From Salinimicrobium sediminis (GTDB lineage Bacteria; Bacteroidota; Bacteroidia; Flavobacteriales; Flavobacteriaceae): a DNA stretch of 64,000 nt. This document shows positions 77 through 16,408 of the stretch, in pieces; within the stretch, counting starts at the first letter, position 1, and each line of letters starts with the position of its first letter. The notes beneath the pieces were generated by a model. The model worked only from the letters and a program-made list of their open reading frames with translations, searched no databases and was not told the origin of the DNA. The position numbers and the translations under genes are program-made. Location: contig NZ_OCMF01000001.1 in assembly GCF_900215295.1 (NCBI RefSeq), forward strand, positions 868,001-932,000, given 5' to 3'.

Positions 77-1132
77 ATGAAAAGCAAGATAAATATATTG
101 CTGGTTTTAACTATTGTCTTATGTTGGGGTTCAATGTTCTCCCAGGGATGTGAAGTCGACGACCCGGGGTCGTCAAAAGATTCCCTAAGCGGACCTACAA
201 TCAACGTTTTTGGATATCTTCAACCACAATACGACTACTTTTTTACAGGAGGAGATCAGGAAAACACCTTTCGATTTAAAAGAGCACGCATTGGCGTGAG
301 GGGTAAAGTATTCGAAGATTTTTCCTATTATTTTATGCTGGAAACCAGTCCCTTTATTGGAAGCACCGGAGATGCCTATCTTATGGATGCCTTTGTTACT
401 TATGAAGCCAACAACTGGGCGAGAATTTCTTTGGGTTCCTTTAAACAACCTTTTAGTTTAGACGTTTCAACTCCCTGTAACAGCTTACCAACTATTGAGA
501 GATCCATTGTTGCCGACCAGTTGGTAGCACCTCAACGTGATTTTGGTTTAGCAATTTTTGGAGGAAATAAGTTTAACAGGCTTAATTATGCTGTTGCACT
601 TATGAATGGACGCGGGCTGGGGGTAAAAGACGATAACGTGAAAAAGGATGTGATGGGTAGGGCCTCTTATAAGATTTTCAGGAGTTTTACTGTTGGTGCC
701 AGTTTTAGATATGGGTATCCCATTCCAAACAATAATGAAGACGACAGAACCTCTTACGGGGGCGATTTTATGTTTGAACTTGGTAATTTTTATCTTCAGG
801 GAGAATATATCTATGACGAAGGAGCCTATTTTGCAGGTGCAGGAGGTGGTTGTGGTGCAACTCCAGTAGCCCTTGGCGAGGAAAGAGATGGTGCTTACCT
901 TCTCGCAGCCTATAGTGTCACCCAAAAGTTCCAGCCCGTATTTAAATATGAATTTTTCGATCCGGATATAAACATCAAGGATAACCTCGGATATACAGAG
1001 AGAATGACGGTTGGCTTTAACTATTTTGTCAATGATAATGTCCGTTTCCAGGTCAACTATCTGGCTAATATTGAGACTGTTGTTAACGTAGATAATGATG
1101 CATTACTCACCCAGGTTCAGATTCGTTTTTAA
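77..1132 (+). CDS. Outer-membrane porin, phosphate-selective porin O/P-like
   Basis: The 351-residue product begins with a signal peptide (roughly residues 1-22) and continues as alternating amphipathic strands ending in an aromatic residue (QVQIRF), typical of a beta-barrel assembled in the outer membrane. Segments such as RFKRARIGVRG and the FGYLQPQYDY start resemble the OprO/OprP porin family common in Bacteroidota. It would let small anions cross the outer membrane. The Crp/Fnr gene follows on the same strand, and the sulfur oxidoreductase operon lies just beyond, so a role in sulfur oxyanion entry is possible but inferred only. There is an unusual cysteine in the mature N-terminus (QGCEVDD), which could also be read as a lipobox-like site, but the barrel-type C-terminus argues for a porin. 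Confidence 0.8.
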   Translation: MKSKINILLVLTIVLCWGSMFSQGCEVDDPGSSKDSLSGPTINVFGYLQPQYDYFFTGGDQENTFRFKRARIGVRGKVFEDFSYYFMLETSPFIGSTGDAYLMDAFVTYEANNWARISLGSFKQPFSLDVSTPCNSLPTIERSIVADQLVAPQRDFGLAIFGGNKFNRLNYAVALMNGRGLGVKDDNVKKDVMGRASYKIFRSFTVGASFRYGYPIPNNNEDDRTSYGGDFMFELGNFYLQGEYIYDEGAYFAGAGGGCGATPVALGEERDGAYLLAAYSVTQKFQPVFKYEFFDPDINIKDNLGYTERMTVGFNYFVNDNVRFQVNYLANIETVVNVDNDALLTQVQIRF

Positions 1133-1214: not shown

Positions 1215-1880
1215 ATGGATAAAAGCCTCATTTTAAAAAGAAAACTTTATCATCAATATTCCGAAATTTTTGAAGATGCCTTACTTCAGGAAATTCTTGA
1301 AGTCGGGTTCATGAAAAAGATAAAAAGCGGAGACCTCCTGATAGATATAGGTGACGAATTGACTCACATACCATTGATACTGAATGGAGTAGTAAAGATT
1401 ATTAGACAGGACAAAGAGGGTTATGAACTGACCTTATTCTACTTAGAACCCGGTCACACCTGCGCTATTTCTTTTGCGAACTGTATCAATAAGAAAAAAA
1501 GCATTTTTAGAGGAACTACAGAATCTGATGTTGAAGCCGTTTTTATTCCGGTTAATTCTGTTGATGAATGGTTGGTCAAATATAAATCCTGGCGCCATTT
1601 TATTATTGATAGTTACCATTTTAGGCTCCTTGAAATGGTCGATTCCATAGATTCACTCGCCTTCCTTACTTTGAGCAACCGCATTTGGAAATATCTGACA
1701 GACAAAGTCAAGATAGCAAAGGATATCGATTTAGGCATCACACATCAAAACATCGCTTCAGACCTCAATTCTTCCCGGGTTGTGGTCACCAGGATTCTTC
1801 AGAAACTACATGACGAGGGAAAAATATATTCCACCAGGAACAAAGTTAAGGTATTGGAACTATTTGATAAGGCTCTGTAA
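1215..1880 (+). CDS. Crp/Fnr-family transcriptional regulator
   Basis: The 221-residue protein has an N-terminal cyclic-nucleotide-binding-type beta-roll (about residues 25-120), a dimerisation helix (about 125-155) and a C-terminal winged helix-turn-helix (about 165-215) with the motif ITHQNIASDLNSSRVVVTRIL, which matches the Crp/Fnr recognition region. It lacks the N-terminal cysteine cluster of classical FNR, so any oxygen or redox sensing would be different; two cysteines lie in the beta-roll (HTCAISFANC). It is encoded near the sulfur oxidoreductase operon, whose divergent promoter region at 8983-9164 contains Crp/FNR-like palindromes, so it is the obvious candidate regulator. That link is inference. 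Confidence 0.85.
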   Translation: MDKSLILKRKLYHQYSEIFEDALLQEILEVGFMKKIKSGDLLIDIGDELTHIPLILNGVVKIIRQDKEGYELTLFYLEPGHTCAISFANCINKKKSIFRGTTESDVEAVFIPVNSVDEWLVKYKSWRHFIIDSYHFRLLEMVDSIDSLAFLTLSNRIWKYLTDKVKIAKDIDLGITHQNIASDLNSSRVVVTRILQKLHDEGKIYSTRNKVKVLELFDKAL

Positions 1881-2766: not shown

Positions 2767-3381
2767 CTAACAGCCTCCTTCTACAGGTAACTTCTTTTTC
2801 TTTTTGACAGGGATAACTTTTTTCGGAATCACTGCCGGTTTTTTAACTTCTTCTTTTTTAGTTGCATTCCTGACCGATTCATCTATAAATGCCCGAATAT
2901 TTGCTACAGGTTTTTCAACATCGGCTGATTCCGTAATAAGGCTGTTGTGCAAATACTTGTTATTTACACTCAGCAATTTGACATTATCATAACCTAACTG
3001 GTAGAGCAAAAGAAAAGGTATGTTCGCTTCTTCTATTTTGTTTCCGTACAGCACTGCCAGTTTATTTGAGTCTTTTAATTTCCGGAAAATTTTTTTGTTT
3101 TCTTCTCTTAAAATTTCTGCAGCGGGAATATTAATTGCATTTTCTAAATGCCCCTGTTCAAAATCATATGGTCTTCTAATATCCACCAAAACAACATCTG
3201 GACTGTCTAACTTATCCATAGGTATGATGTAATTGAGACGGGTGAGGTCTTCAAGAGTACTCTTTGTATTCCTGGCATACATATTTTCCGGGCGTTCATA
3301 CGCCAAAACACCCACCAGAACCGCCAAAATGAACAGAGTTGAGGAAATGGATATACGTTTAACTTTTTCTAATTCTTTCAT
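2767..3381 (-). CDS. Membrane-anchored rhodanese-fold protein with C-terminal GGC tail (1)
   Basis: The 204-residue protein has one N-terminal membrane segment (about residues 10-27), a rhodanese-like domain (about 50-145; VVLVDIRRPYDFEQGHLENA is the family's first signature) and a charged linker ending in PVKKKKKLPVEGGC. In an active rhodanese a cysteine follows the VVY-type strand; here that position reads LAVLYGNK, with Gly113. The only cysteine in the whole protein is the last residue, Cys204. The neighbouring gene encodes a paralog with the same tail and the same substitution. The fold and topology place it in the periplasm beside the PsrA-type enzyme, suggesting the mobile tail, not the rhodanese pocket, carries sulfur. 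That function is inference; the cysteine pattern is seen directly. Confidence 0.85.
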   Translation of the reverse strand: MKELEKVKRISISSTLFILAVLVGVLAYERPENMYARNTKSTLEDLTRLNYIIPMDKLDSPDVVLVDIRRPYDFEQGHLENAINIPAAEILREENKKIFRKLKDSNKLAVLYGNKIEEANIPFLLLYQLGYDNVKLLSVNNKYLHNSLITESADVEKPVANIRAFIDESVRNATKKEEVKKPAVIPKKVIPVKKKKKLPVEGGC

Positions 3382-3408
3382 GATGAATTTTTTGAAATAA
3401 TATTTGAA

Positions 3409-4074
3409 TTAGCACCCTCCTTCCACAGGTCTTTTCTTTTTCTTTTTGACCGGAACTACCTTTCGTGCAGCAGGTTTTTCTATAACAGGCTCTTCAACCC
3501 TGTTTTGTTCCGGATACATTACTCCAAAAAACATACTCGCTGCTTTTCTGGTAGAATAGAGTTCAAAATCTTCAGCAGCAAGTTGTTCGTTAGGAACTGT
3601 GGGATTAATAATGCTGTTGTACCACTCATTTATGCCTCCCTTCAGGACCCGAAGATTTTGATATCCCAGTCGGTTCCCCAGTACCCAGGCCTGATCGGCA
3701 TAAAAATTATCATTTGAGTAAAATATAACATCATACTGGGTTTGATTTATATAAGCTTCGTATTCTTCATCCAGTAAGTTCCTGAGAGGAATATTGACTG
3801 CATTGGGGAGTGAATACTCATTAAAGCTTTGGGGATCCCTCACGTCAACTAAAATGAAAGATGGGTCCTGACTAATTATTTTATCGGAAAGTTCATCTGT
3901 TGAAACATATCTTTCAGTGCTAATAGCTTTATTCAGTAGTTGCTCAGCATGGATCCCTTCCTGCTTTTCCACCTTTGGCAACATCACTAGTCCTCCAGCC
4001 AGGATAAGTAAGATCAATGCCAAAAGCACATATCTAAAAGATAAAAATCTTGCCAGTTTCTTTTTAACCATCAT
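3409..4074 (-). CDS. Membrane-anchored rhodanese-fold protein with C-terminal GGC tail (2)
   Basis: The 221-residue paralog of the downstream gene has an N-terminal membrane helix (about residues 14-31), a rhodanese domain (about 55-155, with FILVDVRDPQSF and the closing LKGGINEWY) and a flexible C-terminus ending PVKKKKKRPVEGGC. The catalytic cysteine position is Ser120 (VIFYSNDN). The single cysteine of the protein is Cys221, the last residue. An EGGC end resembles the GGC-containing C-terminus of SoxY, where the cysteine carries the sulfur substrate; there is no other similarity to SoxY, so this would be convergence. It sits between the YeeE-type transporter genes and its twin, 27 bp from the latter, in the sulfur operon. 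Confidence 0.85.
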   Translation of the reverse strand: MMVKKKLARFLSFRYVLLALILLILAGGLVMLPKVEKQEGIHAEQLLNKAISTERYVSTDELSDKIISQDPSFILVDVRDPQSFNEYSLPNAVNIPLRNLLDEEYEAYINQTQYDVIFYSNDNFYADQAWVLGNRLGYQNLRVLKGGINEWYNSIINPTVPNEQLAAEDFELYSTRKAASMFFGVMYPEQNRVEEPVIEKPAARKVVPVKKKKKRPVEGGC

Positions 4075-4086
4075 AATGTTCTTAGT

Positions 4087-4677
4087 TTAGTAAAATACTT
4101 TTTTGACTCGTTTCCTTACTACATCAGCAAGGGCAAAAGCAACAACAGCTATTATTGAGAATATAAAAATGACCCAGTAAGGATTCCAGTCAAAGGAATC
4201 CATCAATGTTATATTTCCAAGGAAATAACCATCATAAATAGGTTCGATGAAGGTGAAAAATTCAGAAAAAAGTAGCACCCCCACCATAATTCCCAGAACA
4301 TACACCCACGCATCAAGTTTACCAATTGCTACGGCACACAGGCTGGTTCCCGGACAGAATCCTCCGGCAACAAATCCCACTCCCATGATTACTCCACCAA
4401 TGATTGCTCCCCATAAAAAGGTGGGGTGCACATATAGCTGGCGGATATCTAGATACCCGAGGTAATCCATATAGTAAATCCCTATCACTGATACCACTGC
4501 AGCTGTAAAGAAAACTTTCAGCACGGCAAAGTCATAACCGTAAAAGACGCCGGCTAGCTTTCTTGAGGAGGAAAATCCTGAAGATTCCAGAACAAATCCA
4601 AAACAAATTCCAATAAAAATTGCAATAATGCTATCCCATTCGATAGGAATCAAACCATTAGGAATTATTGGTCCCAT
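4087..4677 (-). CDS. YeeE/YedE-family sulfur-compound transporter, second half
   Basis: This integral membrane protein has several hydrophobic helices and the YeeE/YedE signature GFVAGGFCPGTSLCAVAIG, in which the cysteine-containing GxCPGT loop forms part of the thiosulfate path in characterised YeeE. It begins with MGPIIPNGLIP; I chose this start because an upstream in-frame ATG at 4731 would overlap the previous gene by 38 bp and add 18 residues of unlike composition. It pairs with the gene at 4694-5224; together they make the two halves that are one protein in E. coli. The role is probably movement of thiosulfate or a related sulfur compound across the inner membrane for the adjacent oxidoreductase. 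Substrate not proven. Confidence 0.85.
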   Translation of the reverse strand: MGPIIPNGLIPIEWDSIIAIFIGICFGFVLESSGFSSSRKLAGVFYGYDFAVLKVFFTAAVVSVIGIYYMDYLGYLDIRQLYVHPTFLWGAIIGGVIMGVGFVAGGFCPGTSLCAVAIGKLDAWVYVLGIMVGVLLFSEFFTFIEPIYDGYFLGNITLMDSFDWNPYWVIFIFSIIAVVAFALADVVRKRVKKVFY

Positions 4678-4693
4678 AATTTCATTTTTAAAG

Positions 4694-5224
4694 TTAAATC
4701 CAATTCTTTCTAAAGAAGTAGGCCACGGCATAAGCAGAACCGAAAATGGCTAACATGGTTATGAAGCCCCCAACAGATAATACTGCCATACCGCTAAGAG
4801 CGGCACCGCTGGTACATCCACGGGCTATTTGAGCGCCAAGACCGAATAATATTCCACCACCGAGAGCAAAACCAAGTCTACGCCTACTTGTAATTTTAGG
4901 GGAATGCTGAACGCGCCATCTAATTCGACCTGCTAACCCACCTGATATAAAGGCACCTATCAAAATTCCCAAAGCTTCAAAGACTAACCAGGTATTTAAT
5001 GGCGTGTCCTCATCGCTTAGGAAAAGACTGTAATATGCATTAGTTCGAGCATGTGTGGGGGCTACTCCATCTACCAGCGCCACAACACTGCTTTTCATGG
5101 CACCACTTGCCCCTAATCCCCTTCCTGTGAGATAGAAGGTGAAAATGATTATAAGCCCCAGTAAGAATCCGCCGAAATAAGGATTCCAGTAGACGTGTCT
5201 GTTGCTATTTTTATTTGTATTCAT
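4694..5224 (-). CDS. YeeE/YedE-family sulfur-compound transporter, first half
   Basis: The 176-residue membrane protein has about four to five helices and the family motif FGLGAQIARGCTSGAALSG, with the conserved GCTSG loop. A short polar N-terminus (MNTNKNSNRHVYWNPYFGG) precedes the first helix. It is the partner of the next gene downstream; each half contributes one cysteine loop. Split YeeE pairs are common in Bacteroidota and usually lie near sulfur enzymes. Here it follows the NrfD-type subunit by 12 bp, so both are probably translated from one message. Confidence 0.85.
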   Translation of the reverse strand: MNTNKNSNRHVYWNPYFGGFLLGLIIIFTFYLTGRGLGASGAMKSSVVALVDGVAPTHARTNAYYSLFLSDEDTPLNTWLVFEALGILIGAFISGGLAGRIRWRVQHSPKITSRRRLGFALGGGILFGLGAQIARGCTSGAALSGMAVLSVGGFITMLAIFGSAYAVAYFFRKNWI

Positions 5225-5236
5225 AATCGAAGATTT

Positions 5237-6208
5237 TTAGTAGAGATATCGGGTTAACTGGCCCGCTTCTATCATTACAAACCTGAAAACAAGTCCGCCG
5301 ATAATCACAAGAATTGCGGGCACTATAACAGGTACCCTATACCCTACAAGTTCTATTAATTCTAATGTTGCCGGAACCAGCAAACCCAGCAGTACAACAA
5401 AACCAAAGAACATTAAGGTAAATTCCCCTCCTACCAGTAGTTGAACAGCCTCGAGCTGCACCTGCGAACCGGCGTAATAACCCATGATCATGTGCGCAAT
5501 TAGGGCAAGTTCAATAATGATCAACCCCAAATCTATCTTCCCGAAAAGATGTTTTTCTTTTACATTTTTTGATAAGAGAATGATTGCAGCGGCTCCTGTT
5601 GAAAGTCCTGAAGTCAAAAATAAGGGTCCCAGTATCGCATTGTTCCAAAGGGGTCGTGCATTAAAAGCTGATAGTAAAATACCGGTATACACTCCCAATA
5701 CTAAAGCCAACGGAATCAATACATAAGCAATATTCCTCCGGTTTGCTATTACAAACCTCTCCAGGTTATTAAGAAATCTTAACCGCTTAAACAGCTTTAG
5801 TTTAGACTCTACCCCGGCATACGCTTCTCTGTAATAACCAAACAACCAGAGGAAAGAAAGAGGCGTTACAATCATAAGGACCCACGCGCCCCAGGACATA
5901 GGGGATTCAATTCTGAACGAAGTGTACAACTGCCATGTATAAAGCGGATGAGTCAAATCGTACACAAGAGCCAATAATCCTATTGACAAAGCTATTGGGG
6001 GAATAATAGAGGCCTTTTTAACAGCTGCAGGATACTCTTTATCCTTACCCAACACGTAAAACAAGGCCGCAAAAAACAGGATACCTGCAGCTAATCCACC
6101 CAGAAATAAATAGAGGGCAATGGGCCAATGCCATACTTCTAAAGAAGGATCTATGTTTGGAATATTCCGACCACTTGTAAATAATTCTTCTTGCATAACT
6201 TTAACCAT
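5237..6208 (-). CDS. NrfD/PsrC-type quinone-reactive membrane subunit
   Basis: The 323-residue protein is almost entirely hydrophobic helices (about eight), beginning after EVWHWPIALYLFLGGLAAG, the characteristic first helix of NrfD/PsrC. This subunit anchors the periplasmic catalytic and iron-sulfur subunits and exchanges electrons with the quinone pool. It directly abuts the ferredoxin subunit gene (0 bp spacing), which matches PsrABC, PhsABC and TtrABC operons. It has no heme motif, so electron transfer would go through the iron-sulfur partner. Confidence 0.9.
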   Translation of the reverse strand: MVKVMQEELFTSGRNIPNIDPSLEVWHWPIALYLFLGGLAAGILFFAALFYVLGKDKEYPAAVKKASIIPPIALSIGLLALVYDLTHPLYTWQLYTSFRIESPMSWGAWVLMIVTPLSFLWLFGYYREAYAGVESKLKLFKRLRFLNNLERFVIANRRNIAYVLIPLALVLGVYTGILLSAFNARPLWNNAILGPLFLTSGLSTGAAAIILLSKNVKEKHLFGKIDLGLIIIELALIAHMIMGYYAGSQVQLEAVQLLVGGEFTLMFFGFVVLLGLLVPATLELIELVGYRVPVIVPAILVIIGGLVFRFVMIEAGQLTRYLY

Positions 6209-6742
6209 TTAGATTAGGTAGAAAACGTGAGGATTAGTTCCTGCCTCAGGCGCCAGGGTTTTGTACTTTCTATTCTTTAGTAGGTTTGAAACCTCGCTGT
6301 TTGGATTATCCACATCTCCAAAATACATGCATTTTGTAGGACACACCGAAACACAGGCAGGCAGCTGGCCCTTTTCCAATCTATGATGGCAAAAGGTACA
6401 TTTGTCCACATGTCCATCCGGATGTTGATATCGGGCATCATAGGGACAGGATTGAATACAGGCTCCACAACCAATACACTCATCAGCTGTTACGAGTACA
6501 ATACCTCCCTCAACTACGTGACTTGCTCCGGTTGGACAACATCGAACACATGGAGCAGTATCACAATGATTACATCTTTCTGATCTTAATTCTAACTCTA
6601 AATTTGGATATGTTCCACTTACAGCTTCTGTAATCCAGTCCCTGCAAAATCCATGTGGTACATTATTTTCCGTTTGACAGGCCACAACACAATCGCTACA
6701 CCCAACACATTTTAGAGTGTCTATTACCATAGCATATCTCAT
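6209..6742 (-). CDS. 4Fe-4S dicluster ferredoxin subunit, PsrB/NrfC type
   Basis: The 177-residue protein has four cysteine groups able to bind four 4Fe-4S clusters: CVGCSDCVVAC near residues 12-22, CNHCDTAPCVRCCP near 57-70, CIGCGACIQSCP near 89-100, and CTFCHHRLEKGQLPAC around 115-130. This is the standard electron-transfer subunit of membrane-bound molybdopterin oxidoreductases. It has no signal peptide, as usual, because it is exported together with the Tat-bearing catalytic partner. Its start overlaps the end of the catalytic subunit gene by 4 bp (ATGA), indicating translational coupling. Confidence 0.92.
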   Translation of the reverse strand: MRYAMVIDTLKCVGCSDCVVACQTENNVPHGFCRDWITEAVSGTYPNLELELRSERCNHCDTAPCVRCCPTGASHVVEGGIVLVTADECIGCGACIQSCPYDARYQHPDGHVDKCTFCHHRLEKGQLPACVSVCPTKCMYFGDVDNPNSEVSNLLKNRKYKTLAPEAGTNPHVFYLI

Positions 6743-8982
6743 ATTTCTGCTTTTTTATGTGGATTTTCAGTTAAAATAGAAACGAAATTGCCTCTAAGCC
6801 CTGTTCCCCCCATTAATGGATCAACGGCTGTTTGTGAAATCATTTCTGTATCACTTACACCTTTCCCGAAGGCTCTGGAGAGTTTTTTCTCATTATGTCC
6901 AAAACCGTGGTACATATAAACCGAATCCCACCTGATTCTTTCGGTTATTCTTACCTTTATCGGGAAAGTAGAGGCAATGCCATCCTGGTTCTTTAACCAA
7001 ACTTCCTGGTCTTTTTTTAACTTTAATATTCTGGCTGCTTTAGGATTTACCCAAAGTGTATTTTCAGCTTTCAGGTCACTTAGATGCGGGTTATTTATTG
7101 TTCTACTAAAGGTGTGCATTGGTGACCTTCCGTAATTCAATCTGTAAAAGCCCTGAGGCGGTTCCGGATGTTTTGTATATACAGGAATAGGATCGAAGCC
7201 CTTATTAGCTAATTGCTGTGAATAGAATTCTATTTTGCCACTGGGAGTAAAAAAATGATAATCCTGATCTTCTTGCAGATACAGAGGCCCTGAAGTTCGA
7301 TCGAAATTCTTTACTCCTATTTTTTTCATTTCCTCTAAAGATGTTCCCAGTTTATTTAATTGCCATTCAATCACTTCTTCATAATCATCGTAGTTGAAAA
7401 ATTCACCTAAACCAAGGCGCTCCCCTATCTGTTTACTTATCCACCACGCAGGTTTAGAATCGTATTTAGGCTTTACAGCAGGAATTCTAACAGCAATTGA
7501 GGGGGTCCTGTTTGTAGCAGATCGTATTCCGTCGTAGCGTTCCAGGTAGGTGCATTCCGGCAGAACCACATCGGCATAGCCGGTGATTTCCATTGGCATT
7601 GTATCCATTACCACGAGAAAGTCGAGAGCATTAATAGCATCAATGGTCTTATCTCTTTGCGGCAGCGTTTGGATAAGATTTGTTCCCGCGACCATCCAGG
7701 CTTTCACCGGATGCTCATTGCCTTCACTTTCTATGGTCGCCTTCACTACTTCAGAAGTTATTCCCATTTGAGCGAAAGGATATTTTTCTCCAATTTCTTC
7801 CCAACCCCATCTTGGCTTGGGATATTCCGGATGAGGGTAAGAAGGAACTTTGAGGCTTTCTTTAAAGTAAAAACCTCCTCTGTTCCCCCAGCTTCCCAGA
7901 AGTCCATTTAGGATTGCTACAGCACGGCCTCTTTGGGAATCATCTCCATACCATGTTACATGTCTTCCCGGATGAACAATAACGGCAGGGGCAGCAGCTG
8001 CCATTATACGTGCTGTTTTTCTGATTTCTTCCGGCTTTATTCCTGTAATCCCATAGGCCCACTCTGGAGTGTTAGTTCTTACGTGAGCCTTTAACTGATC
8101 AAAGCCTGTAGTGTATTTCTCAACGTATTTCTTATTGTACAGGCCTTCTTCGATCAACACATGCATCCATGACAGTAATAGAGCCATGTCTGTTGCAGGC
8201 TTAATAGCTAACCAGTGGTCAGATTTACTGGCAGCAGTAGAGAACCTTGGATCTACTGTAATAATTTTTGCTCCCTTATCAATGGCATCAGACATTTCCT
8301 GAACCTGGGAATTGTGCATATTCTCTCCAATATGGGAACCTATCAGCACCAGGCATTTAGTGTCTCTAATATCTGTGGGTTCGGGAGATCCCACCCAGGA
8401 TCCAAAAGTTAATCCAAATCCTGTTTCTCTCGGGCCTCTACACTGGGCATACGCAGGTTCGGCAATGGTGTCAGACCCATAAGCCTTGAACAGATGTTCT
8501 AAATGACTTCCCGGAGATCCGTGTTTAAGAAGTGCAAAAGATTCGGGCCCATACTGTTCTTTGATTGTTTGAAACTTTGAGGCAACCAGATCAAGAGCTT
8601 CCTCCCAACTTGCTTCTCTAAAAGTTTCTTCTCCATTAATAGTTGTTCTTATTAAAGGAGTTTTAAGGCGATCCTCATCGGTATACATTCCCACACCACC
8701 AGTTCCTCTTGGACAGAGTCTGCCGTTGCAGTGTGTATCATCATCATTCCCGATAATTTTTGTGATTTCACCTTCTTCATCTGTATATACCCACCCTGCA
8801 CATTTCCAAAAACATACTTCACAATAAGTAGCAGATCTAACGAATTTTCTGGCTATACTTTCCTTTACGGTTTTCTCAAAAAAAGGATTCATCCCAAACA
8901 GGTTAAACGCACCCGAAGTGGTTGCCAAACCTCCTAAACCTAAGGCAGAAATTTTTATGAATTTTCGTCTTGAAGTGGTCAT
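6739..8982 (-). CDS. Periplasmic molybdopterin oxidoreductase, PsrA/PhsA type catalytic subunit
   Basis: The 747-residue enzyme starts with a twin-arginine signal (SRRKFIK, then a hydrophobic stretch to about residue 29). A 4Fe-4S site follows (Cys54, Cys57, Cys61, Cys90, the last in NGRLCPRG), then the MGD-binding domains. Cys181 in AYAQCRGPRETG is the likely molybdenum ligand, as in polysulfide and thiosulfate reductases of the DMSO reductase family. The C-terminal cofactor domain (about 620-747) is complete. With the ferredoxin and NrfD subunits it forms an ABC-type complex. The YeeE transporters and rhodaneses point to a sulfur compound; arsenate or other substrates are less likely in this setting. 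Direction of catalysis is open. Confidence 0.88.
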   Translation of the reverse strand: MTTSRRKFIKISALGLGGLATTSGAFNLFGMNPFFEKTVKESIARKFVRSATYCEVCFWKCAGWVYTDEEGEITKIIGNDDDTHCNGRLCPRGTGGVGMYTDEDRLKTPLIRTTINGEETFREASWEEALDLVASKFQTIKEQYGPESFALLKHGSPGSHLEHLFKAYGSDTIAEPAYAQCRGPRETGFGLTFGSWVGSPEPTDIRDTKCLVLIGSHIGENMHNSQVQEMSDAIDKGAKIITVDPRFSTAASKSDHWLAIKPATDMALLLSWMHVLIEEGLYNKKYVEKYTTGFDQLKAHVRTNTPEWAYGITGIKPEEIRKTARIMAAAAPAVIVHPGRHVTWYGDDSQRGRAVAILNGLLGSWGNRGGFYFKESLKVPSYPHPEYPKPRWGWEEIGEKYPFAQMGITSEVVKATIESEGNEHPVKAWMVAGTNLIQTLPQRDKTIDAINALDFLVVMDTMPMEITGYADVVLPECTYLERYDGIRSATNRTPSIAVRIPAVKPKYDSKPAWWISKQIGERLGLGEFFNYDDYEEVIEWQLNKLGTSLEEMKKIGVKNFDRTSGPLYLQEDQDYHFFTPSGKIEFYSQQLANKGFDPIPVYTKHPEPPQGFYRLNYGRSPMHTFSRTINNPHLSDLKAENTLWVNPKAARILKLKKDQEVWLKNQDGIASTFPIKVRITERIRWDSVYMYHGFGHNEKKLSRAFGKGVSDTEMISQTAVDPLMGGTGLRGNFVSILTENPHKKAEI

Positions 8983-9164: not shown

Positions 9165-11051
9165 ATGAAAAAGAAATACTTCGAGGTTGGAGTCCTTTCT
9201 ACCGGACTTTTGCTAATTGTGATACTATTTTTTATAAGAAATTATGATTTCTCCAATACCTCTACTCCGACCGAAATTCAATACTCAAAAATAGAAGTTG
9301 GTAACACAGAATCCTGTTTGCAATGCCATCAGAATACAACCGGATATTCCAGTTATCACAATCCACAACTTATAGGGTGCTCAAGTTGTCATTTAGGAGA
9401 CATTTCTTCTTTAGATAAAACCAAAGCTCATAAAGGCATGATCTTAATTCCCGGAAACCTGGCCGATGCTGAGATGACCTGTGGAAAATGCCATTCTGAA
9501 GAATTGAAAAAAATTAATAACTCTTTAATGACCACCAATAGCGGGTTGGTTGCTGTTGACAAGTTTGTATTTGGGGAAGCAGACAGCCCCAACTATCACT
9601 ATCATATCAAGGATATACAATATTCTGCTGCAGATAAACACATTCGGGATCTATGTGCAAACTGTCATTTAGGGGCAGAAAAAGCAGAATACGGGGAAAT
9701 AAACCAGCTAAGCAGAGGTGGAGGTTGTATCGCCTGTCATCTGAATTATTCTGATGAAGCAAAATCTGATTTGGAAAAATATCTCGCATCGGGCAAAAAG
9801 GAATTACCCGGGTTTCATCCTTCAACAGACATATTTGTTAATGACACCCATTGCTTTGGTTGCCATAGCCGTTCCAGCAGGATCTCTACCAATTATATAG
9901 GTCTTCAGGAAACCTTGCTGGATGAGAAAGAAATTGGAAATAAAAAAGAGTATTCGGTATTACAGGACAAACGTGTGTACAAACATTTAGAAGAAGATGT
10001 ACATCATACAAAAGGCCTGCTGTGTATTGACTGTCACTCCTCACATGAGGTGATGGGTACAGGTGTAAAGTATTTACATCAGGAAGATGCTGTCACCCTG
10101 AATTGCAGCGATTGCCACTTTAAAGAAAAACCGAATACCATACCCTATGATTCGTTGGATAGGGAAAGCCTTTTGGTCTTTTTACATCGCGATTATAAAC
10201 ATTCAGATAAAAAAATTATAGCAGTCAAAGAAGATGGACATCCATTAGTAAACACCTATGTGGACTCAACCGGAAACGCCTATTTAATTAGTAAGAACAA
10301 TAGGAAAGTCCATCCCTTAAAGCCACAGGCAGCAGAGTGCTCAAGAGAGAGCCATAAGAACGTAAGCTGTAGTTCCTGCCATTCTTCCTGGACCTCCCGG
10401 TGTATTGGCTGTCACAACGAATTTGACAAAGACAAACCAAAGGCCTTCGACCTGCTCGACAAGAAATATGTGACTGGACAATGGGAAGAATATGTGGCAG
10501 AATTCTCATCCTCACAGTCCGCCCTCGGAGTTCGGGAACATGGGGGCAAAAATGTTATTGAACCTGCCATTCCCGGAATGATCTTAACCATAGATAAAGG
10601 AAGTTATAAGGGCAGACCCGGGGAAGATATTTCTTTTCACAGGCTTTACGCGCCTAATTCCCCTCACACCACAACCAAGGAAGTGAGAGATTGTAAATCC
10701 TGCCACTCCAATTCGGCCACCCTGGGATATGGCATGGGATCCCTGGAATACAAAATTAAAAGTAATAAAGGCTCCTGGATTTTTATTCCGGAATACGCTC
10801 TTAACAGCAATGACAATTTACCTGAAGATGCGTGGATTCCATTTTTAAAAGATGTTGAAAAGGGTGTGGTGAACTCTACCCGGACTAATTTCAGGCCCTT
10901 TAATGTAGAAGAACAGAAAAGGATGCTGTTCATTGGTGCCTGTCTTCAATGTCATAAGGATAATTCCAAAGTAATGAAACAAACTCTGGAACTGGGATTA
11001 CAACCGGTGTTGAAAAAGATATCCGACGCCTGCATTTTGCCTGAAGGATAA
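9165..11051 (+). CDS. Membrane-anchored dodecaheme cytochrome c
   Basis: The 628-residue protein has an N-terminal membrane helix (about residues 8-25) with no lipobox, so it is probably tethered to the inner membrane and faces the periplasm. Twelve CxxCH heme motifs can be counted: CLQCH, CSSCH, CGKCH, CANCH, CIACH, CFGCH, CIDCH, CSDCH, CSSCH, CIGCH, CKSCH and CLQCH. A long heme-free insertion (about residues 420-510) lies between motifs ten and eleven. It is divergent from the PsrA-type operon and probably exchanges electrons with it or acts as a separate reductase or oxidase for the same substrate. I do not recognise a named family. The stop lies 2 bp from the end of convergent moaA. Confidence 0.85.
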   Translation: MKKKYFEVGVLSTGLLLIVILFFIRNYDFSNTSTPTEIQYSKIEVGNTESCLQCHQNTTGYSSYHNPQLIGCSSCHLGDISSLDKTKAHKGMILIPGNLADAEMTCGKCHSEELKKINNSLMTTNSGLVAVDKFVFGEADSPNYHYHIKDIQYSAADKHIRDLCANCHLGAEKAEYGEINQLSRGGGCIACHLNYSDEAKSDLEKYLASGKKELPGFHPSTDIFVNDTHCFGCHSRSSRISTNYIGLQETLLDEKEIGNKKEYSVLQDKRVYKHLEEDVHHTKGLLCIDCHSSHEVMGTGVKYLHQEDAVTLNCSDCHFKEKPNTIPYDSLDRESLLVFLHRDYKHSDKKIIAVKEDGHPLVNTYVDSTGNAYLISKNNRKVHPLKPQAAECSRESHKNVSCSSCHSSWTSRCIGCHNEFDKDKPKAFDLLDKKYVTGQWEEYVAEFSSSQSALGVREHGGKNVIEPAIPGMILTIDKGSYKGRPGEDISFHRLYAPNSPHTTTKEVRDCKSCHSNSATLGYGMGSLEYKIKSNKGSWIFIPEYALNSNDNLPEDAWIPFLKDVEKGVVNSTRTNFRPFNVEEQKRMLFIGACLQCHKDNSKVMKQTLELGLQPVLKKISDACILPEG

Positions 11052-11052
11052 A

Positions 11053-12060
11053 TTATCCCCCAATGGTGGTCATACTCCTGTTCTGGTTATGCAATTTCGG
11101 TTCCTGCAGTTTCTCCAGCGTATCCATTCCTCCACGGATTCTGAATTTACTCTGAACCGCCCTTTGAATGATAGGCTCAATTGGACCGCCTTTACGAAGT
11201 GTGCTTAATAAATTGGATTCAGTAGTAGAAAACAGGCAGTTTTTCAAGTAACCGTTGGCGGTGAGTCGTAACCTGTTACAGGAATCGCAAAAAGGATTGG
11301 TTACCGAGCTTATTACAGCAAAACTGCCTTTATATCCTCTTATCCTGAAATTCCTTGCCGTATCATTCGGCGCATCCTGTAATCTTTCGATCTCATCCTC
11401 TGTAAAAGCGATTTTTACCTTGTCCATTACTTCTTTAAGAGAAACCATTTGGTCCATTTTCCATTTATTGCCATCAAAAGGCATGAACTCTATAAAACGG
11501 ACAGAAACCGGTAAGTCTTTGGTGAGATTAATGAAATCAAGAATTTCATCGTCATTCACTCCCCGCATCAGCACAGCATTTAACTTCACGTTGAAACCTT
11601 TTTGTATCAGGAGCAGTATGTTTTCATAAACAGTATCAAACTGGTCTCGCAGCGTTATTTTATGAAATTTCTCTCTCTGCAGTGAATCCAAACTTACGTT
11701 GATGTTGTTAACCCTGTGTAATTTAAGAGTATCAACAAACTTATCAATGATCACGGCATTGGTGGTTATAGATAATTCCACAGGTAATGAGGCCAGTTTC
11801 TCCAGAACAGAGGAAAAATCCTTTCTTATCAATGGTTCTCCCCCCGTTAGCCTGATTTTGGTAACACCATGATCTACAAAAATCTTCGCTATTTGAAAGA
11901 TCTCCTCATAGGTCATTATATCACTTTTGGGAGTGAGCGGTATGCCTTCTGCAGGCATACAATAAAAACATCGCAAGTTGCAGCGTTCCACCAGGGAAAT
12001 GCGCAGATAGCGATGCTCTCTGCCGTGGGGATCCTGTAGGATATGATCGTGATTTATCAT
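11053..12060 (-). CDS. moaA: GTP 3',8-cyclase MoaA
   Basis: The 335-residue radical SAM enzyme carries the N-terminal cluster motif CNLRCFYC (Cys27, Cys31, Cys34), the TGGEPL motif near residue 73, and a second C-terminal cluster (FCDSCNRLRL and a later LKNCLFS). It ends in the GG that MoaA inserts into its active site. It makes the first cyclic intermediate of molybdenum cofactor synthesis from GTP. It is the last gene of the minus-strand cofactor operon and abuts the moaC-mogA fusion. No terminator is visible in the 1-bp gap to the convergent cytochrome gene. Confidence 0.95.
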   Translation of the reverse strand: MINHDHILQDPHGREHRYLRISLVERCNLRCFYCMPAEGIPLTPKSDIMTYEEIFQIAKIFVDHGVTKIRLTGGEPLIRKDFSSVLEKLASLPVELSITTNAVIIDKFVDTLKLHRVNNINVSLDSLQREKFHKITLRDQFDTVYENILLLIQKGFNVKLNAVLMRGVNDDEILDFINLTKDLPVSVRFIEFMPFDGNKWKMDQMVSLKEVMDKVKIAFTEDEIERLQDAPNDTARNFRIRGYKGSFAVISSVTNPFCDSCNRLRLTANGYLKNCLFSTTESNLLSTLRKGGPIEPIIQRAVQSKFRIRGGMDTLEKLQEPKLHNQNRSMTTIGG

Positions 12061-12972
12061 TTAATCGTGTCTTGCACCCTTTAATATTCTGAAAATATGT
12101 AACACCGACGGGAAAATAGCTTCCATAGATTCTTTAGCTCCGTTGGTTGAACCCGGCAATCCCAGGACTAATGTGTTCTTAATAGTACCGGCAATACTCC
12201 TTGAAAGCATGGAAAAAGGAGTTCTGTCTTGCCCGTAACTGCGAATAGCCTCTTCTATGCCCGGTATACGACGATCTAATAAAGGTTCAAGCGCTTCGGG
12301 TGTTACGTCGCGTTTTGATAAGCCGGTCCCTCCGGTATAGATGATCAGATCCATTCCCTGTTCCTGGAAAATCCTCGCTTTTTCCCGGATCATGTCTTTC
12401 TCATCCGGGATGATGATATAATGAACCACATTGACATTGCAGTCCTGTAGTATTCCTTTAATTGCCTTCCCTGCCCTGTCCTCTTTTTCTCCTGCGGAAA
12501 TACTATCTGAGCAAACGATCACAGCGGCGGAAAGATCTTTCCTGAAGCGGTCCGTAAAATCAGATTTCCCGCCTTTCTTCTCAAGCAACTTTATCTGAAG
12601 GATTTCTATTCCCTTGTCAATTGGTTTCAGCATATCGTACATATTGAGCGCCACCACACTTGCTCCATGCATTGCCTCTACTTCTACACCTGTTTTATAA
12701 ATGGTCTTCACCGTAAACAATACAGAAATTTCCAATCCGTTGATGTCATATTCCACACTTGTAAATTCAATGGGAATGGGATGACAATCGGGCAGAATGT
12801 CGGGGGTCCTTTTGACTCCTAACAAGCCTGCTGCTTTACTCATTGCAAACACATTCCCCTTGGGAACGGTATCATTCTTAATAGCTGCTATAGTTTCCTC
12901 CTTGCTCACTTTTACAATGGCCTGTGCAACTGCTGTTCTCAAGGTTGTACTTTTATGTGTGATATCAACCAT
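12061..12972 (-). CDS. moaCB: Fusion of MoaC (cPMP synthase) and MogA/MoaB (molybdopterin adenylyltransferase)
   Basis: Residues 1 to about 145 match MoaC (VDITHKSTTLRTA, MSKAAGLLGVKRT, DCHPIP, MHGASVVALNMYD), which turns the MoaA product into cyclic pyranopterin monophosphate with MoaA. Residues from about 150 to 303 match MogA/MoaB (VIVCSDSISAGEKEDRAG, IIYTGGTGLSKRDVTPEA, LGLPGSTNG), which adenylates molybdopterin before metal insertion. The two steps are not consecutive in the pathway, so the fusion probably serves co-expression or complex assembly. It is followed directly by moaA and preceded 3 bp away by moaE. Confidence 0.93.
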   Translation of the reverse strand: MVDITHKSTTLRTAVAQAIVKVSKEETIAAIKNDTVPKGNVFAMSKAAGLLGVKRTPDILPDCHPIPIEFTSVEYDINGLEISVLFTVKTIYKTGVEVEAMHGASVVALNMYDMLKPIDKGIEILQIKLLEKKGGKSDFTDRFRKDLSAAVIVCSDSISAGEKEDRAGKAIKGILQDCNVNVVHYIIIPDEKDMIREKARIFQEQGMDLIIYTGGTGLSKRDVTPEALEPLLDRRIPGIEEAIRSYGQDRTPFSMLSRSIAGTIKNTLVLGLPGSTNGAKESMEAIFPSVLHIFRILKGARHD

Positions 12973-12975
12973 TTC

Positions 12976-13419
12976 TTAAGTATTTACTTTCCACTGATGG
13001 GTACTGTCTTCAAAAATTTCCTTTCCAAAAACGGGCACCTTTGCTTTAATTTCTTCCACAACAAATTCCAGCGCCTCAAATATGGTTTTGCGCCGTGGTG
13101 ACGACACAAATACGAACAGGCAGATCTCTCCTGCTTTCACCAGCCCCAGACTGTGATAAATATGCATGCAGGTAAGATCAAACTTTTCAAAAGCTGCTTC
13201 CCTAATTTCATGGAACTTCCGGTTGGCCATCTCTTGATAGGCCGTGTATTCTATTGCTTTGACGGTTTTCTCATCCACAACGTCTGCCCTTACCTGCCCT
13301 AAAAAGATATTATGGGCACCGATCTGATTTTTACTCTGATGTTTGACAATAGACCGAGCTATGAATTCAGCTGAAATCGCTCCCTGTACAAACACATTTT
13401 TAATCTCCCTGTCACTCAT
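12976..13419 (-). CDS. moaE: Molybdopterin synthase large subunit MoaE
   Basis: The 147-residue protein is of usual MoaE length. It shows the family signatures FLGQVRADV, AIEYTAYQEMA, IYHSLGLVKAGE and VSSPRRKTIFEA, and a C-terminal KVPVFGKEIFED with the conserved active-site lysines. It combines with thiocarboxylated MoaD to place two sulfurs on the pterin. Its start overlaps the end of moeB by 8 bp. Confidence 0.94.
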   Translation of the reverse strand: MSDREIKNVFVQGAISAEFIARSIVKHQSKNQIGAHNIFLGQVRADVVDEKTVKAIEYTAYQEMANRKFHEIREAAFEKFDLTCMHIYHSLGLVKAGEICLFVFVSSPRRKTIFEALEFVVEEIKAKVPVFGKEIFEDSTHQWKVNT

Positions 13420-14506
13420 TTGTTACCCGATTAAATGATTCTTTTATGACCCTGTTTATTTCTGAAGCGCCTTCCTTTAAACTGAAGCAGTTGTTTACCT
13501 GAAGGTTGTGTAATACAGAAACCGCCTGTTTGCTTCTAATACCTGACTGGCAGAAGATTGCTTTTATCTTGCGATCACTTATCTCATCAAGATGTTGTTC
13601 TATCCGGCTTAATGGAATTCTTAGGACCCGGTGATCATCGACTTTTGGCTGCTCATGAAGCTCCCTTACATCAATAAGCTGAAGGTCTTGTTTTTCCATA
13701 ACCTCTTTAAGAGAGACCTCTGTAAAATCAACTTTACGTGTGGTTCCTAAAATGCGTTTCTGGAATATCTTTTTATCCTGAAGCACCTTCTGAATTTTAA
13801 CTTCCTTCCTCTTTACATTTATGGTGGTAACCTGGCTTGAAAGGGCATCATAACAAAGAAGTTTCCCTGAAAGTACCTTTCCAAGGCCAAGAATGACCTT
13901 GAGCACTTCATTTGCCAGCAGGGTTCCAATGATTCCCGGTAGAACTCCTAAAACCCCAACTTCAGAACAATTAGGAACACTATGTTTACCAGGTTTATTG
14001 GGAAAAACACACCTGTAGGTGGGGCCATTATTATAATTAAATACCGACACCTGCCCCTGGAACTTGTGGATAGCGCCAAAAACAACCGGTTTATTGCTCA
14101 AAACAGAGGCATCATTAATCAAATAACGCGCTTCAAAATTATCGGTCCCATCGACTATTATATCATATTCTCTGAACAATTCCATCGCATTATGAAACGT
14201 CAGTTTCTCCGGATATGCGTTTATCTGAATCGTGTTGTTGAGATCGTTTAACCGATCTTTGGCCGCCACAGCTTTATTTTGTCCCAGCGAAGCCGAACCA
14301 AATAGAATTTGACGCTGAAGATTCGATTCTTCTACCACATCATTGTCAATTATACCAATAGTACCTACCCCGGCAGCCGCCAAATATTGCAGCACAGGAC
14401 ACCCCAATCCGCCGGCGCCAACAACCAGCACCCTTGCAGCAGCAAGTTTCTCCTGACCTTTCGGGCCGATTTCAGACAGTATAATATGTCGGTTGTATCT
14501 ATCCAT
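13412..14506 (-). CDS. moeB: Molybdopterin-synthase adenylyltransferase MoeB with C-terminal rhodanese domain
   Basis: The 364-residue protein has an N-terminal E1-like domain (about 1-245; RYNRHIILSEIG, VLVVGAGGLGCPV, VDGTDNFEARYL) that adenylates the C-terminus of MoaD. A C-terminal rhodanese domain (about 265-360) carries the active-site FCQSGIRS, with the cysteine intact, and would pass sulfur to the MoaD adenylate. This makes a useful contrast with the two cysteine-less rhodanese domains at 2767-4074. The N-terminal part lacks none of the expected motifs. It follows moaD by 6 bp. Confidence 0.92.
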   Translation of the reverse strand: MDRYNRHIILSEIGPKGQEKLAAARVLVVGAGGLGCPVLQYLAAAGVGTIGIIDNDVVEESNLQRQILFGSASLGQNKAVAAKDRLNDLNNTIQINAYPEKLTFHNAMELFREYDIIVDGTDNFEARYLINDASVLSNKPVVFGAIHKFQGQVSVFNYNNGPTYRCVFPNKPGKHSVPNCSEVGVLGVLPGIIGTLLANEVLKVILGLGKVLSGKLLCYDALSSQVTTINVKRKEVKIQKVLQDKKIFQKRILGTTRKVDFTEVSLKEVMEKQDLQLIDVRELHEQPKVDDHRVLRIPLSRIEQHLDEISDRKIKAIFCQSGIRSKQAVSVLHNLQVNNCFSLKEGASEINRVIKESFNRVTNE

Positions 14507-14512
14507 TTTTTT

Positions 14513-14752
14513 TTAACCTCCGGCGAAAGGAGGTAGCAACACTATATTGGTATTGGTAATTTTATCTTCAGGAGACACCAATTCCATATTCTGGGCTACC
14601 TGAAAGTCTTTATCCTTTAATCCGGAATAGCTCGTGTAAAGCGTTTCCAGCAATTCTGAAATAGAATTCCCTGAGAAAAAGATGCTTTCTTCCTCACATC
14701 CGGTCACTTCTGCGAGCAGTCCGAAATATTTAATTTTTAATTCCATGGGCAA
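14513..14752 (-). CDS. moaD: Molybdopterin synthase small subunit MoaD
   Basis: The 79-residue ubiquitin-like protein ends in PPFAGG, the C-terminal di-glycine that MoeB adenylates and that becomes a thiocarboxylate. Sequence such as KIKYFGLLAEVTG is typical. The start overlaps mobA by about 20 bp; an ATG two codons later would reduce the overlap only slightly. Confidence 0.93.
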   Translation of the reverse strand: MPMELKIKYFGLLAEVTGCEEESIFFSGNSISELLETLYTSYSGLKDKDFQVAQNMELVSPEDKITNTNIVLLPPFAGG

Positions 14753-15314
14753 TAGACTTTAATTCTCCCGGAGTATTAATATTTGAGGTGAAAACATCCT
14801 TTTCAGGATCCAACTCCACATTTTTTACCCTGCAATGATCGAGAGCCACATGTAGTCGCCGTTCATCAGTTTTTAGAAGTTCATGAAAAATCAGTTTACA
14901 CCGTTTGTGGTATAAGGCAATCAGGGGCATACTTCTTCCATTGCTTACGAGCTGAACCACATCAAAAGTACCGTCCTGGGCATAGATCAATAGTTCAAGA
15001 ACTTTGGTTTTGATCAATGGTACATCACAACTCAGCACCAGATTATAAACGGTTTTAGACCTGCTTAATCCGGTGAGAATTCCGGCCAAAGGACCTGCAT
15101 TTGGAATGATATCTTCAAATCTTCCCAACTTTAGGACATCATAAGCGGGATTACCGGAGATAATGAAAGTTTCAGTAACCAGGGGTTCAACTGCAGAAAT
15201 ACTGTATTGAACGAACAGCCTTCCGTTGAGATTGATCAGGCCTTTGTCCGTTCCCATGCGGGAACTTTTTCCTCCGGCCAGAATGATACCCGTTATGTCC
15301 TTCTTTTCGATCAT
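14730..15314 (-). CDS. mobA: Molybdenum cofactor guanylyltransferase MobA
   Basis: The 194-residue nucleotidyltransferase has the N-terminal GTP-binding signature TGIILAGGKSSRMGTDKGL, then PNAGPLAGILTGL and SCDVPL, all diagnostic for MobA. It attaches GMP to the molybdenum cofactor to make the bis-MGD form needed by DMSO reductase-family enzymes such as the PsrA-type protein at 6739-8982. No mobB is visible. It is separated by a single base from the TauE/SafE gene upstream. Confidence 0.93.
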   Translation of the reverse strand: MIEKKDITGIILAGGKSSRMGTDKGLINLNGRLFVQYSISAVEPLVTETFIISGNPAYDVLKLGRFEDIIPNAGPLAGILTGLSRSKTVYNLVLSCDVPLIKTKVLELLIYAQDGTFDVVQLVSNGRSMPLIALYHKRCKLIFHELLKTDERRLHVALDHCRVKNVELDPEKDVFTSNINTPGELKSIAHGIKN

Positions 15315-15315
15315 A

Positions 15316-16059
15316 TTACGTAGTAAACAATTTTACCGAGGCAATGACAAGTACTACCGCCAGGATATAGCTCAGCCGCCGGTTATTGAATTTTTTACTT
15401 CCAAAATAGGCCCCCAGAAAACCTCCTATGAGTGCAATACCGACTAACATCAAAGATTCTCTGCTTAAAGTAACTCCTGTAGTCCACTGTCCGATCAAAC
15501 CTGAAGCGGAATTCACCCAGATAAATAAAGCTGAAACCGCAGCTGCTTCTTTCATTTTTCCCCAGTGCAACAATAGAATAATAGGTGTCAAAACTATACC
15601 CCCGCCAATACCTATGAGCCCGGAAAAAAAGCCTATGATCCCACCAACCACCAGGCCCTGCCACAATTTTACCTTTTTAATGACCTCAACTTCTTTCCCA
15701 AAAACATTCAGCAGTTTCAGGACGGCAAACACCAATAAAAGCGCCAGCACTTTTTTGTACACAGAAGCGTCGACCTCTATTGTCCCTCCCAAAAAAGCGA
15801 GTGGGATAGAGGTGATCGCAAATGAGATAAATAATTTCCGGTTAAAGTAACCTTCCTTATAGTAATAGAAAAAAGCAATGCCCGCCACAAATAAGTTAAG
15901 CAAAAGGGCAGTTGGCTTCATGGTTTCGGGAGCAAAAGAAAACAATGCCATCAAGGCCAGATACCCACTGGCACCTCCATGACCTACACTGGAATACATG
16001 AAAGAAACCACGGGTAGTGCCAGCAGAAATAGATATATGTTCTCTGGTTGTAACATCAT
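15316..16059 (-). CDS. TSUP-family (TauE/SafE) anion exporter
   Basis: The 247-residue protein has about seven to eight membrane helices and the duplicated TauE/SafE glycine motifs (SSVGHGGASGYLAL near residue 22 and GLIGIGGGIVLTPIIL near 135). Family members move sulfite, sulfonates or other small sulfur or carboxyl anions. It is embedded in the molybdenum cofactor operon, between mobA and the ModE-like gene with 0-1 bp spacing, so it is expressed with them. It could export sulfite made by the sulfur enzyme or carry an oxyanion needed for cofactor synthesis. Both are inference; no dedicated molybdate transporter is visible in the window. Confidence 0.85.
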   Translation of the reverse strand: MMLQPENIYLFLLALPVVSFMYSSVGHGGASGYLALMALFSFAPETMKPTALLLNLFVAGIAFFYYYKEGYFNRKLFISFAITSIPLAFLGGTIEVDASVYKKVLALLLVFAVLKLLNVFGKEVEVIKKVKLWQGLVVGGIIGFFSGLIGIGGGIVLTPIILLLHWGKMKEAAAVSALFIWVNSASGLIGQWTTGVTLSRESLMLVGIALIGGFLGAYFGSKKFNNRRLSYILAVVLVIASVKLFTT

Positions 16060-16398: not shown

Positions 16399-16408
16399 TT
16401 ACCTCCAT

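Follow-up and report, generated by a model that had tools for sequence, protein, structure and literature searches.

Two adjacent minus-strand genes in a 64,000-nucleotide stretch of the Salinimicrobium sediminis genome (contig NZ_OCMF01000001.1, positions 868,001 to 932,000; the whole stretch is referred to here as the window) encode RhdA and RhdB, rhodanese-fold proteins that lack a cysteine at the catalytic position and carry their only cysteine as the very last residue of a lysine-rich tail. We favor, with a probability of roughly 0.6, the reading that these are pseudo-rhodaneses tethered to the membrane, each a swinging-arm carrier of a chalcogen that links a redox enzyme of the periplasm with, in most cases, a YeeE-type transporter. 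In the proposed mechanism, a single N-terminal helix would tether each protein to the inner membrane, presumably with its soluble part on the periplasmic side, the rhodanese domain would serve only as a docking module, and a flexible lysine-rich arm of 30-40 residues would swing the terminal cysteine (...GGC) to its partners. This cysteine would bear sulfane sulfur, or possibly selenium, as a persulfide or a thiosulfonate-like adduct. One partner would be a redox enzyme of the periplasm, which is PsrABC in the window and an octaheme cytochrome c at other loci; the other, at almost every locus, would be a two-part YeeE channel. We lean towards an exchange between enzyme, arm and YeeE, in which import or delivery to the reductase would both be possible. 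This reading is drawn from the tail cysteine present in all 68 intact proteins of a census, fusions of the rhodanese with YeeE, exchangeable redox partners, the matched tails of paralogs, the gene neighborhood of SoxY, and the idea that SoxY hands sulfur to SoxT.

Two rhodanese-fold proteins with a terminal cysteine

The two genes, their arms and their cysteine codons are located as follows.

3409..4074, minus strand: rhdA, pseudo-rhodanese with a predicted membrane anchor, 221 amino acids (aa), Ser120 at the catalytic position (open reading frame (ORF), Pfam PF00581)
2767..3381, minus strand: rhdB, paralog of rhdA, 204 aa, Gly113 at the catalytic position (ORF, Pfam PF00581)
3412..3528, minus strand: predicted C-terminal arm of rhdA, residues 183-221, lysine-rich, ending PVEGGC (low predicted local distance difference test score (pLDDT) from residue 181, tail sequence)
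2770..2862, minus strand: predicted C-terminal arm of rhdB, residues 174-204, lysine-rich, ending PVEGGC (low pLDDT from residue 171, tail sequence)
3412..3414, minus strand: codon of Cys221, the sole and terminal cysteine of rhdA
2770..2772, minus strand: codon of Cys204, the sole and terminal cysteine of rhdB

Both proteins match the Pfam Rhodanese family PF00581 (E = 3.5e-12 for 2767-3381 and 3.4e-15 for 3409-4074), and at E 0.01 Pfam gave this family alone, the SoxY domain being absent from both. Where an active rhodanese has a cysteine in its active-site loop, RhdB has Gly113 and RhdA has Ser120. A preliminary description of this DNA had stated that the only cysteine of each protein is its final residue, which was borne out by a count of one cysteine per protein, at residue 204 in RhdB and residue 221 in RhdA. 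The shared ending that it had reported, PVKKKKK-x-PVEGGC, is present in both window proteins (tail sequences KKVIPVKKKKKLPVEGGC and RKVVPVKKKKKRPVEGGC), though the exact form is local and it is GC-type endings that recur across the census described below. The bodies of the two proteins are 26% identical. A pattern search for EGGC endings found no genes beyond rhdA and rhdB in the genome of the window, with 0-4 matches per genome for a reversed-pattern control; additional matches, left unread, occurred in three other genomes (G035, G042 and G050).

AlphaFold models computed from 10-sequence alignments give each protein an N-terminal helix, a confident core and a poorly ordered end. In the RhdA model (pLDDT 79) the helix spans residues 3-30, the 10-residue blocks of the core score 90-96, and the arm has block means of 37-56 from residue 181; in the RhdB model (pLDDT 77) the core blocks score 84-94 and the arm blocks again average 37-56, here from residue 171. 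The low-confidence arm is probably flexible in both proteins, and with the predicted helices this agrees with the mobile tail and the membrane anchor supposed at the outset. Foldseek searches with the RhdA model ranked rhodanese domains best (top match 6mxv, E = 4.2e-7), and CDC25 phosphatases, which have the same fold, lower.

Retention of the tail and its cysteine

Among 149 related genomes searched first, the complete tandem pair is present in 7 further genomes of the family (G035, G042, G050, G057, G058, G071 and G072), and relatives occur in G090 and G105, which belong to the same taxonomic order; an additional scan of named genomes contributed 4 loci, and L039 was omitted from this set as a duplicate of L032. 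The window's own genus is represented by 11 other genomes, two of them about 75% complete, and the pair was found in none of these, which points to a patchy distribution. All rhdA and rhdB copies inspected among these first relatives end in EGGC, SGGGC or SGGCG, and the invariant columns of a 26-sequence alignment are D77, R79, N94 and the final GGC. At L043/L044 there are three paralogs with nearly identical tails, the third being a double rhodanese with a catalytic-type cysteine.

For the census, 395 genomes of the phylum Bacteroidota were searched with a YeeE-half query, chosen so as not to score on the rhodanese itself. This gave 67 matches at E <= 2.2e-55, distributed over 64 genomes with 19 family labels, and the next match stood at 1.5e-27. 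An intact rhodanese is fused to the YeeE half or follows it directly at 66 of the 67 loci, for a total of 68 proteins (two each in the window and in G042), rhodanese detection being scripted with L196, L198 and L199 added after reading by hand. At the 67th locus, L201, a frameshift interrupts the rhodanese, and the ending KKKKREGC is read in a different frame; this copy is left out of the 68. Every one of the 68 proteins has a cysteine within its last two residues, and in 59 it is the very last residue. The endings are mostly GC plus zero or one residue, with the exceptions RFQC (L215) and GLCS (L218 and L219), and the median net charge of the last 17 residues is +4. A hydrophobic, membrane-like segment lies N-terminal to the rhodanese in all 68, and 54 of them have a single cysteine in the last 200 residues.

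Control proteins behave differently. A set of 73 generic rhodaneses was taken from 54 loci (30 loci and a further 24, L051-L074, selected non-randomly, with ORFs lacking a stop dropped and L069 retained despite a YeeE-half-like ORF); none of the 73 has a cysteine in the last two residues, and 52 of them have a loop-like cysteine as recognized by a regular expression. Under a last-three-residue rule one control qualifies, L052, whose stretch (L107) also encodes a YedE-like transporter. Among non-rhodanese ORFs, from which those without a stop were likewise dropped, 6 of 1,004 have a cysteine in the last two residues, and one of these is L199, a member missed by the hidden Markov model; a selenocysteine ending was considered for L199 and rejected, as its GGC is followed by an ordinary stop. 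Taken together, the census and the controls rule out chance or recent duplication as the origin of the tail cysteine, and the earlier proposal of strong selection on the tail is supported by its persistence under all 19 family labels.

The absence of a catalytic cysteine, claimed for the two window proteins, holds for them and is the rule across the 19 family labels, though it is not absolute among their relatives. When the catalytic column is defined by an aligned rhodanese that has a CYSGQ loop, a cysteine occupies it in 2 of the 68 census proteins (L200 and L203), L198 has a cysteine one residue earlier, and the third rhodanese of L043/L044 has the catalytic-type cysteine noted above; none occurs in that column among the 26 first relatives in the same 94-row alignment. 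Across the relatives this column holds S, G, A, C, D or N. Such variability bears on an alternative in which the terminal cysteine substitutes for the lost active-site cysteine, with the tail folding into the pocket of its own protein or of the paralog to form a split sulfurtransferase. The invariance of D77 and R79 in the 26 sequences indicates that part of the conserved core of the fold is retained, an arm of 30-40 residues would be long enough, and paralogs with matched tails could act in trans. However, the tail shows no order in the models, the residue in the catalytic column is variable, and the tail is also found on proteins with a catalytic-type cysteine (the third gene of L043/L044, L200 and L203), which makes this arrangement improbable.

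The tails of paralogs were compared over the 14 residues preceding the cysteine for every genome or locus that had two copies, 17 in all. Their identity is 76.9% within a genome versus 43.8% between genomes, a within-genome value reached in 0 of 20,000 shuffles, while the bodies are 26.8% identical within and 27.4% between genomes (15,893 of 20,000 shuffles). When the test is restricted to 8 divergent genomes, a tail value as high as the real one comes up in 5 of 40,320 permutations. RhdA compared across genomes is 47.1% alike in its body and 45.0% in its tail. At shared tail residues the codons agree in 118 of 208 cases, where 102.5 would be expected from codon usage; this closeness to expectation indicates that the tails are mostly not the product of recent DNA copying, so that recent gene conversion can be at most a partial cause and selection at the level of the peptide is the likelier one. 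Older gene conversion could also lie behind the matching. On sequence comparison, then, it appears to be chiefly the peptide that is kept similar between the arms of paralogs, as would be expected if both serve one receptor.

Redox partners, YeeE fusions and the carrier reading

Redox markers in the fetched stretches divide the 67 loci into 26 with psr genes, 35 with an octaheme cytochrome and 6 with neither, one of the last being a 3.4-kb contig. The octaheme protein of L111 scores above the TIGR04315 cut-off (590 versus 375 bits), and the other octahemes were assigned by similarity to it. We count the constancy of the tail while the redox partner differs in favor of the carrier reading. The co-occurrence with PsrA-type enzymes that the preliminary description had proposed to look for in Bacteroidota is found in the first group and not in the other two. 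A search with PsrA gave 28 top-tier loci (>= 1147 bits), and an intact tail rhodanese adjoins psrA in 26, G780 among them; at the two remaining loci the rhodanese lies on another short contig (G548) or is frameshifted (G778). Together with the YeeE halves and PsrABC genes of the window itself, this supports the suspected linkage to a split YeeE and a PsrA-type enzyme. G840 has a partial PsrA match of 959 bits but none to YeeE, and a further three PsrA matches score below 273 bits.

Rhodanese and YeeE half form a single ORF at 35 of the 67 loci (34 by script and L199 by hand), namely at 34 of the 35 octaheme loci, the exception being L216, and at one psr locus (L186). In L111 and the other fusions viewed, the YeeE and rhodanese parts are separated, as judged by eye, by a loop of charged residues and a segment of hydrophobic ones. 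At L209, L210, L211 and L214 a gene of about 300 aa, sulfurtransferase-like by eye and split into two ORFs in L209, lies upstream of the YeeE halves; here the rhodanese ends in RMGC and the stretch is without a Psr or octaheme enzyme. A search of plasmids for other phyla gave 3 records, one of them informative: on a plasmid of Gemmatirosa (Gemmatimonadota), a YeeE half is followed by a rhodanese in which YSEGG replaces the catalytic motif and which ends in RRRGC. A Sulfuricella plasmid record has a DUF6691/YeeE pair and no annotated rhodanese within the stretch inspected, and there was a further hit in Cupriavidus. The rhodanese-YeeE fusion, the octaheme partner class, the within-genome matching of tails and the likeness to selenite/tellurite operons discussed below are all absent from the preliminary description.

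As the partners are rich in metal centers, we considered whether the tail cysteine plays a structural part, binds a metal or heme, or fastens the rhodanese to one of them (Psr, the octaheme cytochrome or YeeE) through an inter-protein disulfide; a terminal cysteine beside lysine residues could be a disulfide hook. We know of no heme ligand in the form of a glycine-flanked terminal cysteine. The tail is, moreover, common to the different partner settings, and such a cysteine is a known form of sulfur-binding arm, that of SoxY (PMC6067878), so that a ligand or staple has, in our view, little chance of being the correct explanation.

The carrier reading finds its counterpart in SoxY, whose C-terminal GGCGG cysteine has an established function in sulfur binding (PMC6067878). 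Variants of soxY adjoin octaheme otr and YeeE/D genes (PMC11237559), and the passage of sulfur from the SoxY cysteine to the cysteines of the YeeE-like SoxT has been called conceivable (PMC11582611). RhdA and RhdB, which end in GGC, share with SoxY(Z) a glycine-flanked cysteine at or near the C-terminus of a flexible arm, and their family shares its octaheme and YeeE-type gene neighbors; they differ in having the rhodanese fold and a predicted membrane tether, and in that many of their relatives share a single ORF with a YeeE half. Characterized YeeE relatives move thiosulfate or raise sulfane sulfur, and in Hyphomicrobium the carrier-bound periplasmic sulfane sulfur is stated to cross the membrane "by unknown means" (PMC11582611). 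The natural fusion of arm and YeeE would put this hand-over in one polypeptide. With YeeE/TsuA, SoxT and PmpA/PmpB the transporter halves described here have in common the Sulf_transp domain and the CPGTS and GCTSG cysteines, and with PmpA/PmpB also the division into two halves (PMC11582611), but here they are fused to, or neighbored by, a rhodanese arm, and TusA is frequently undetected. The natural fusion also suggests a second origin of the swinging-arm design, on a fold unrelated to that of SoxY. More tentatively, and at somewhat less than even odds, these proteins may constitute an undescribed chalcogen-carrier family that presents sulfane sulfur or selenium at the mouth of an often-fused YeeE channel and couples interchangeable periplasmic redox enzymes (Psr, octaheme, perhaps a sulfurtransferase) to the passage of S or Se through the membrane, a membrane-bound and fold-unrelated counterpart of SoxYZ-SoxT in Bacteroidota and Gemmatimonadota. 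In the parts of the literature covered, with subscription papers mostly outside that scope, we recognized no description of rhodaneses with a terminal carrier cysteine or of a YeeE-rhodanese fusion. A GC- or GGC-ending rhodanese beside a split YeeE may also serve as a marker for a sulfur/selenium module, which it would place in 64 genomes out of the 395 searched in the phylum.

Several observations weigh against the carrier reading as a whole or against parts of it. The alignments behind both queries were built from rhodanese-bearing loci: 10 of the 67 YeeE-half loci are in genomes that gave rows to the alignment and 57 are not, and by our count the former applies to 7 of the 28 top-tier PsrA loci, which leaves the two censuses less than fully independent. 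Homologs of the two kinds that had been named in advance as damaging to the idea both exist and are rare, namely the 2 of 68 that keep a cysteine at the catalytic position and one, a 172-aa second rhodanese copy in G512 (L049, 964-1482), that has neither tail nor cysteine and stands beside a copy ending in QGGCS. Additional cysteines occur in the last 200 residues of 14 of the 68 census proteins, a crude positive-inside count, the basis for the membrane orientation, finds more positive charge before the helix in just 41 of 68, and the tails match weakly (21-43%) in 4 of the 17 paralog pairs (L034, L103, L104 and L106). In a second tier of 14 Psr loci (833-851 bits; family f98, genus g323), neither the YeeE half (E 1e-10) nor the tail rhodanese (E 1e-12) found a match, which suggests that the arm follows the top-tier Psr clade and that Psr chemistry as such needs none. 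In G780, two tail rhodaneses directly follow nrfD without a YeeE-half match at E 1e-10. TusA, which usually partners YeeE import on the cytoplasmic side, was undetected in 10 of the 13 cluster-bearing genomes tested, and the TusA-like family PF01206 gave no match in the genome of the window at E 0.001. The TusA result and G780 together argue against import by YeeE in the manner of TsuA-TsuB.

The operon of the window and its candidate cargo

On the minus strand, rhdA and rhdB belong to a gene set with psrA, psrB, nrfD and two YeeE halves, and a gene for a cytochrome with 12 CXXCH motifs lies divergent to it. The remaining features are listed below.

4087..4731, minus strand: yeeE half with an FCPGTSLC motif and a weak alignment to the N-terminal part of TsuA (Pfam Sulf_transp, 1.1e-16)
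4694..5224, minus strand: yeeE half with a GCTSG motif, aligning to the C-terminal part of TsuA (Pfam Sulf_transp, 1.8e-23)
5237..6208, minus strand: nrfD/psrC-type membrane subunit (Pfam NrfD, 5.2e-53)
6209..6742, minus strand: psrB-type iron-sulfur subunit (Pfam Fer4_11 and others)
6739..8982, minus strand: psrA-type molybdopterin catalytic subunit with a twin-arginine start SRRKFIK, by eye (best solved relative 2vpw)
9165..11051, plus strand: multiheme cytochrome c with 12 CXXCH, divergent, nearest to Geobacter ExtM (NCBIfam ExtM, 231 bits, below the cut-off of 800)
1215..1880, plus strand: Crp-family regulator beside the operon (Pfam HTH_Crp_2, cNMP_binding)
77..1132, plus strand: porin-like outer membrane protein, nearest to ExtI (Pfam Porin_O_P; NCBIfam ExtI, 44.6 bits, scored as L035 10077-11129, below the cut-off of 150)

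The GCTSG half aligns to the TsuA structures 8j4c and 6leo (E = 3e-5 to 6e-5), and the TsuA/YeeE equivalog scores stay below their cut-offs (44.7 of 400 and 18.6 of 645 bits). The closest solved structure to psrA is 2vpw, named thiosulfate reductase (615 bits), which we take to be Thermus PsrABC, and against the PhsA equivalog model of NCBIfam the gene product scores 473 bits, under the cut-off of 694. The subunits are those of PsrABC/PhsABC, an exported molybdopterin protein (its export signal judged by eye), an iron-sulfur protein and NrfD, in the order psrA, psrB, nrfD; the differences are the PhsA score and the adjoining rhodanese arm. In Wolinella, the sulfur of polysulfide is passed to Psr by Sud, a rhodanese of the periplasm whose active-site cysteine binds polysulfide. 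RhdA and RhdB share with Sud the rhodanese fold and the linkage to Psr, whereas the active-site cysteine has been lost and the tail cysteine is new. Membership in the Sud group was rejected, since 1qxn ("sulfide dehydrogenase", presumably Sud itself) matches at E 0.003 only and the catalytic cysteine is missing.

The cytochrome and the porin bring selenium, or tellurium, into view as the cargo: in such a selenite/tellurite-type respiration, the tail cysteine would hold selenium as a Cys-S-Se adduct, an intermediate towards Se0. The nearest models to the two proteins are ExtM and ExtI of the Geobacter ext selenite/tellurite cluster, a likeness in sequence that suggests a chalcogen link, and the loss of extI in Geobacter impairs selenite/tellurite reduction (PMC5877670). 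The Bacillus selenitireducens selenite reductase operon includes rhodanese-domain genes (PMC12481199), so that SrrE/SrrF are likened to RhdA and RhdB, by gene content, in placing one or more rhodanese genes in a PsrA/SrrA-type operon. PsrA, PhsA and SrrA are placed in one lineage (PMC7331816), and selenoprotein forms of YeeE (GUxSG) and of TIGR04315 members exist (PMC13188914). Set against this, both Ext matches lie far under the curated equivalog cut-offs (231 of 800 and 44.6 of 150 bits), the top PsrA matches bear the name thiosulfate reductase, and the YeeE relatives of known function handle thiosulfate or sulfane sulfur (PMC11582611). We consider selenium or tellurium an unlikely cargo on balance, though we keep selenium beside sulfur in the carrier reading on account of the ExtM/ExtI likeness, far below cut-off as it is, and the rhodanese genes of the selenite reductase operon.

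A relative of the Crp-family regulator is found nearby in L032, L037, L040, L041 and L042. Adjoining the operon, positions 11053-17584 of the window hold genes that by eye resemble moaA, moaC/mog, moaE, moeB, mobA and moeA, which would fit the molybdenum enzyme of the operon. Immediately to the left of the window (L035, 8052-9032; genome C8:866052-867032) lies a tail-less double rhodanese with a CYSGQ active site; its counterpart in L037 ends in APGCD, and the L043/L044 copies have the full tail. Finally, the L107 stretch (G424) encodes two rhodaneses with lipoprotein-like starts, by eye, at 5663-6145 and 9203-9703, the former ending in GGGCGG with a catalytic-type cysteine and the latter in SGGCGG. 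The stretch also encodes a YedE-like transporter of 405 aa, a porin resembling ExtI and a protein resembling ExtH, none of which reaches its cut-off. Judged by these termini, L107 is a case of SoxY-style endings on rhodaneses in another setting.

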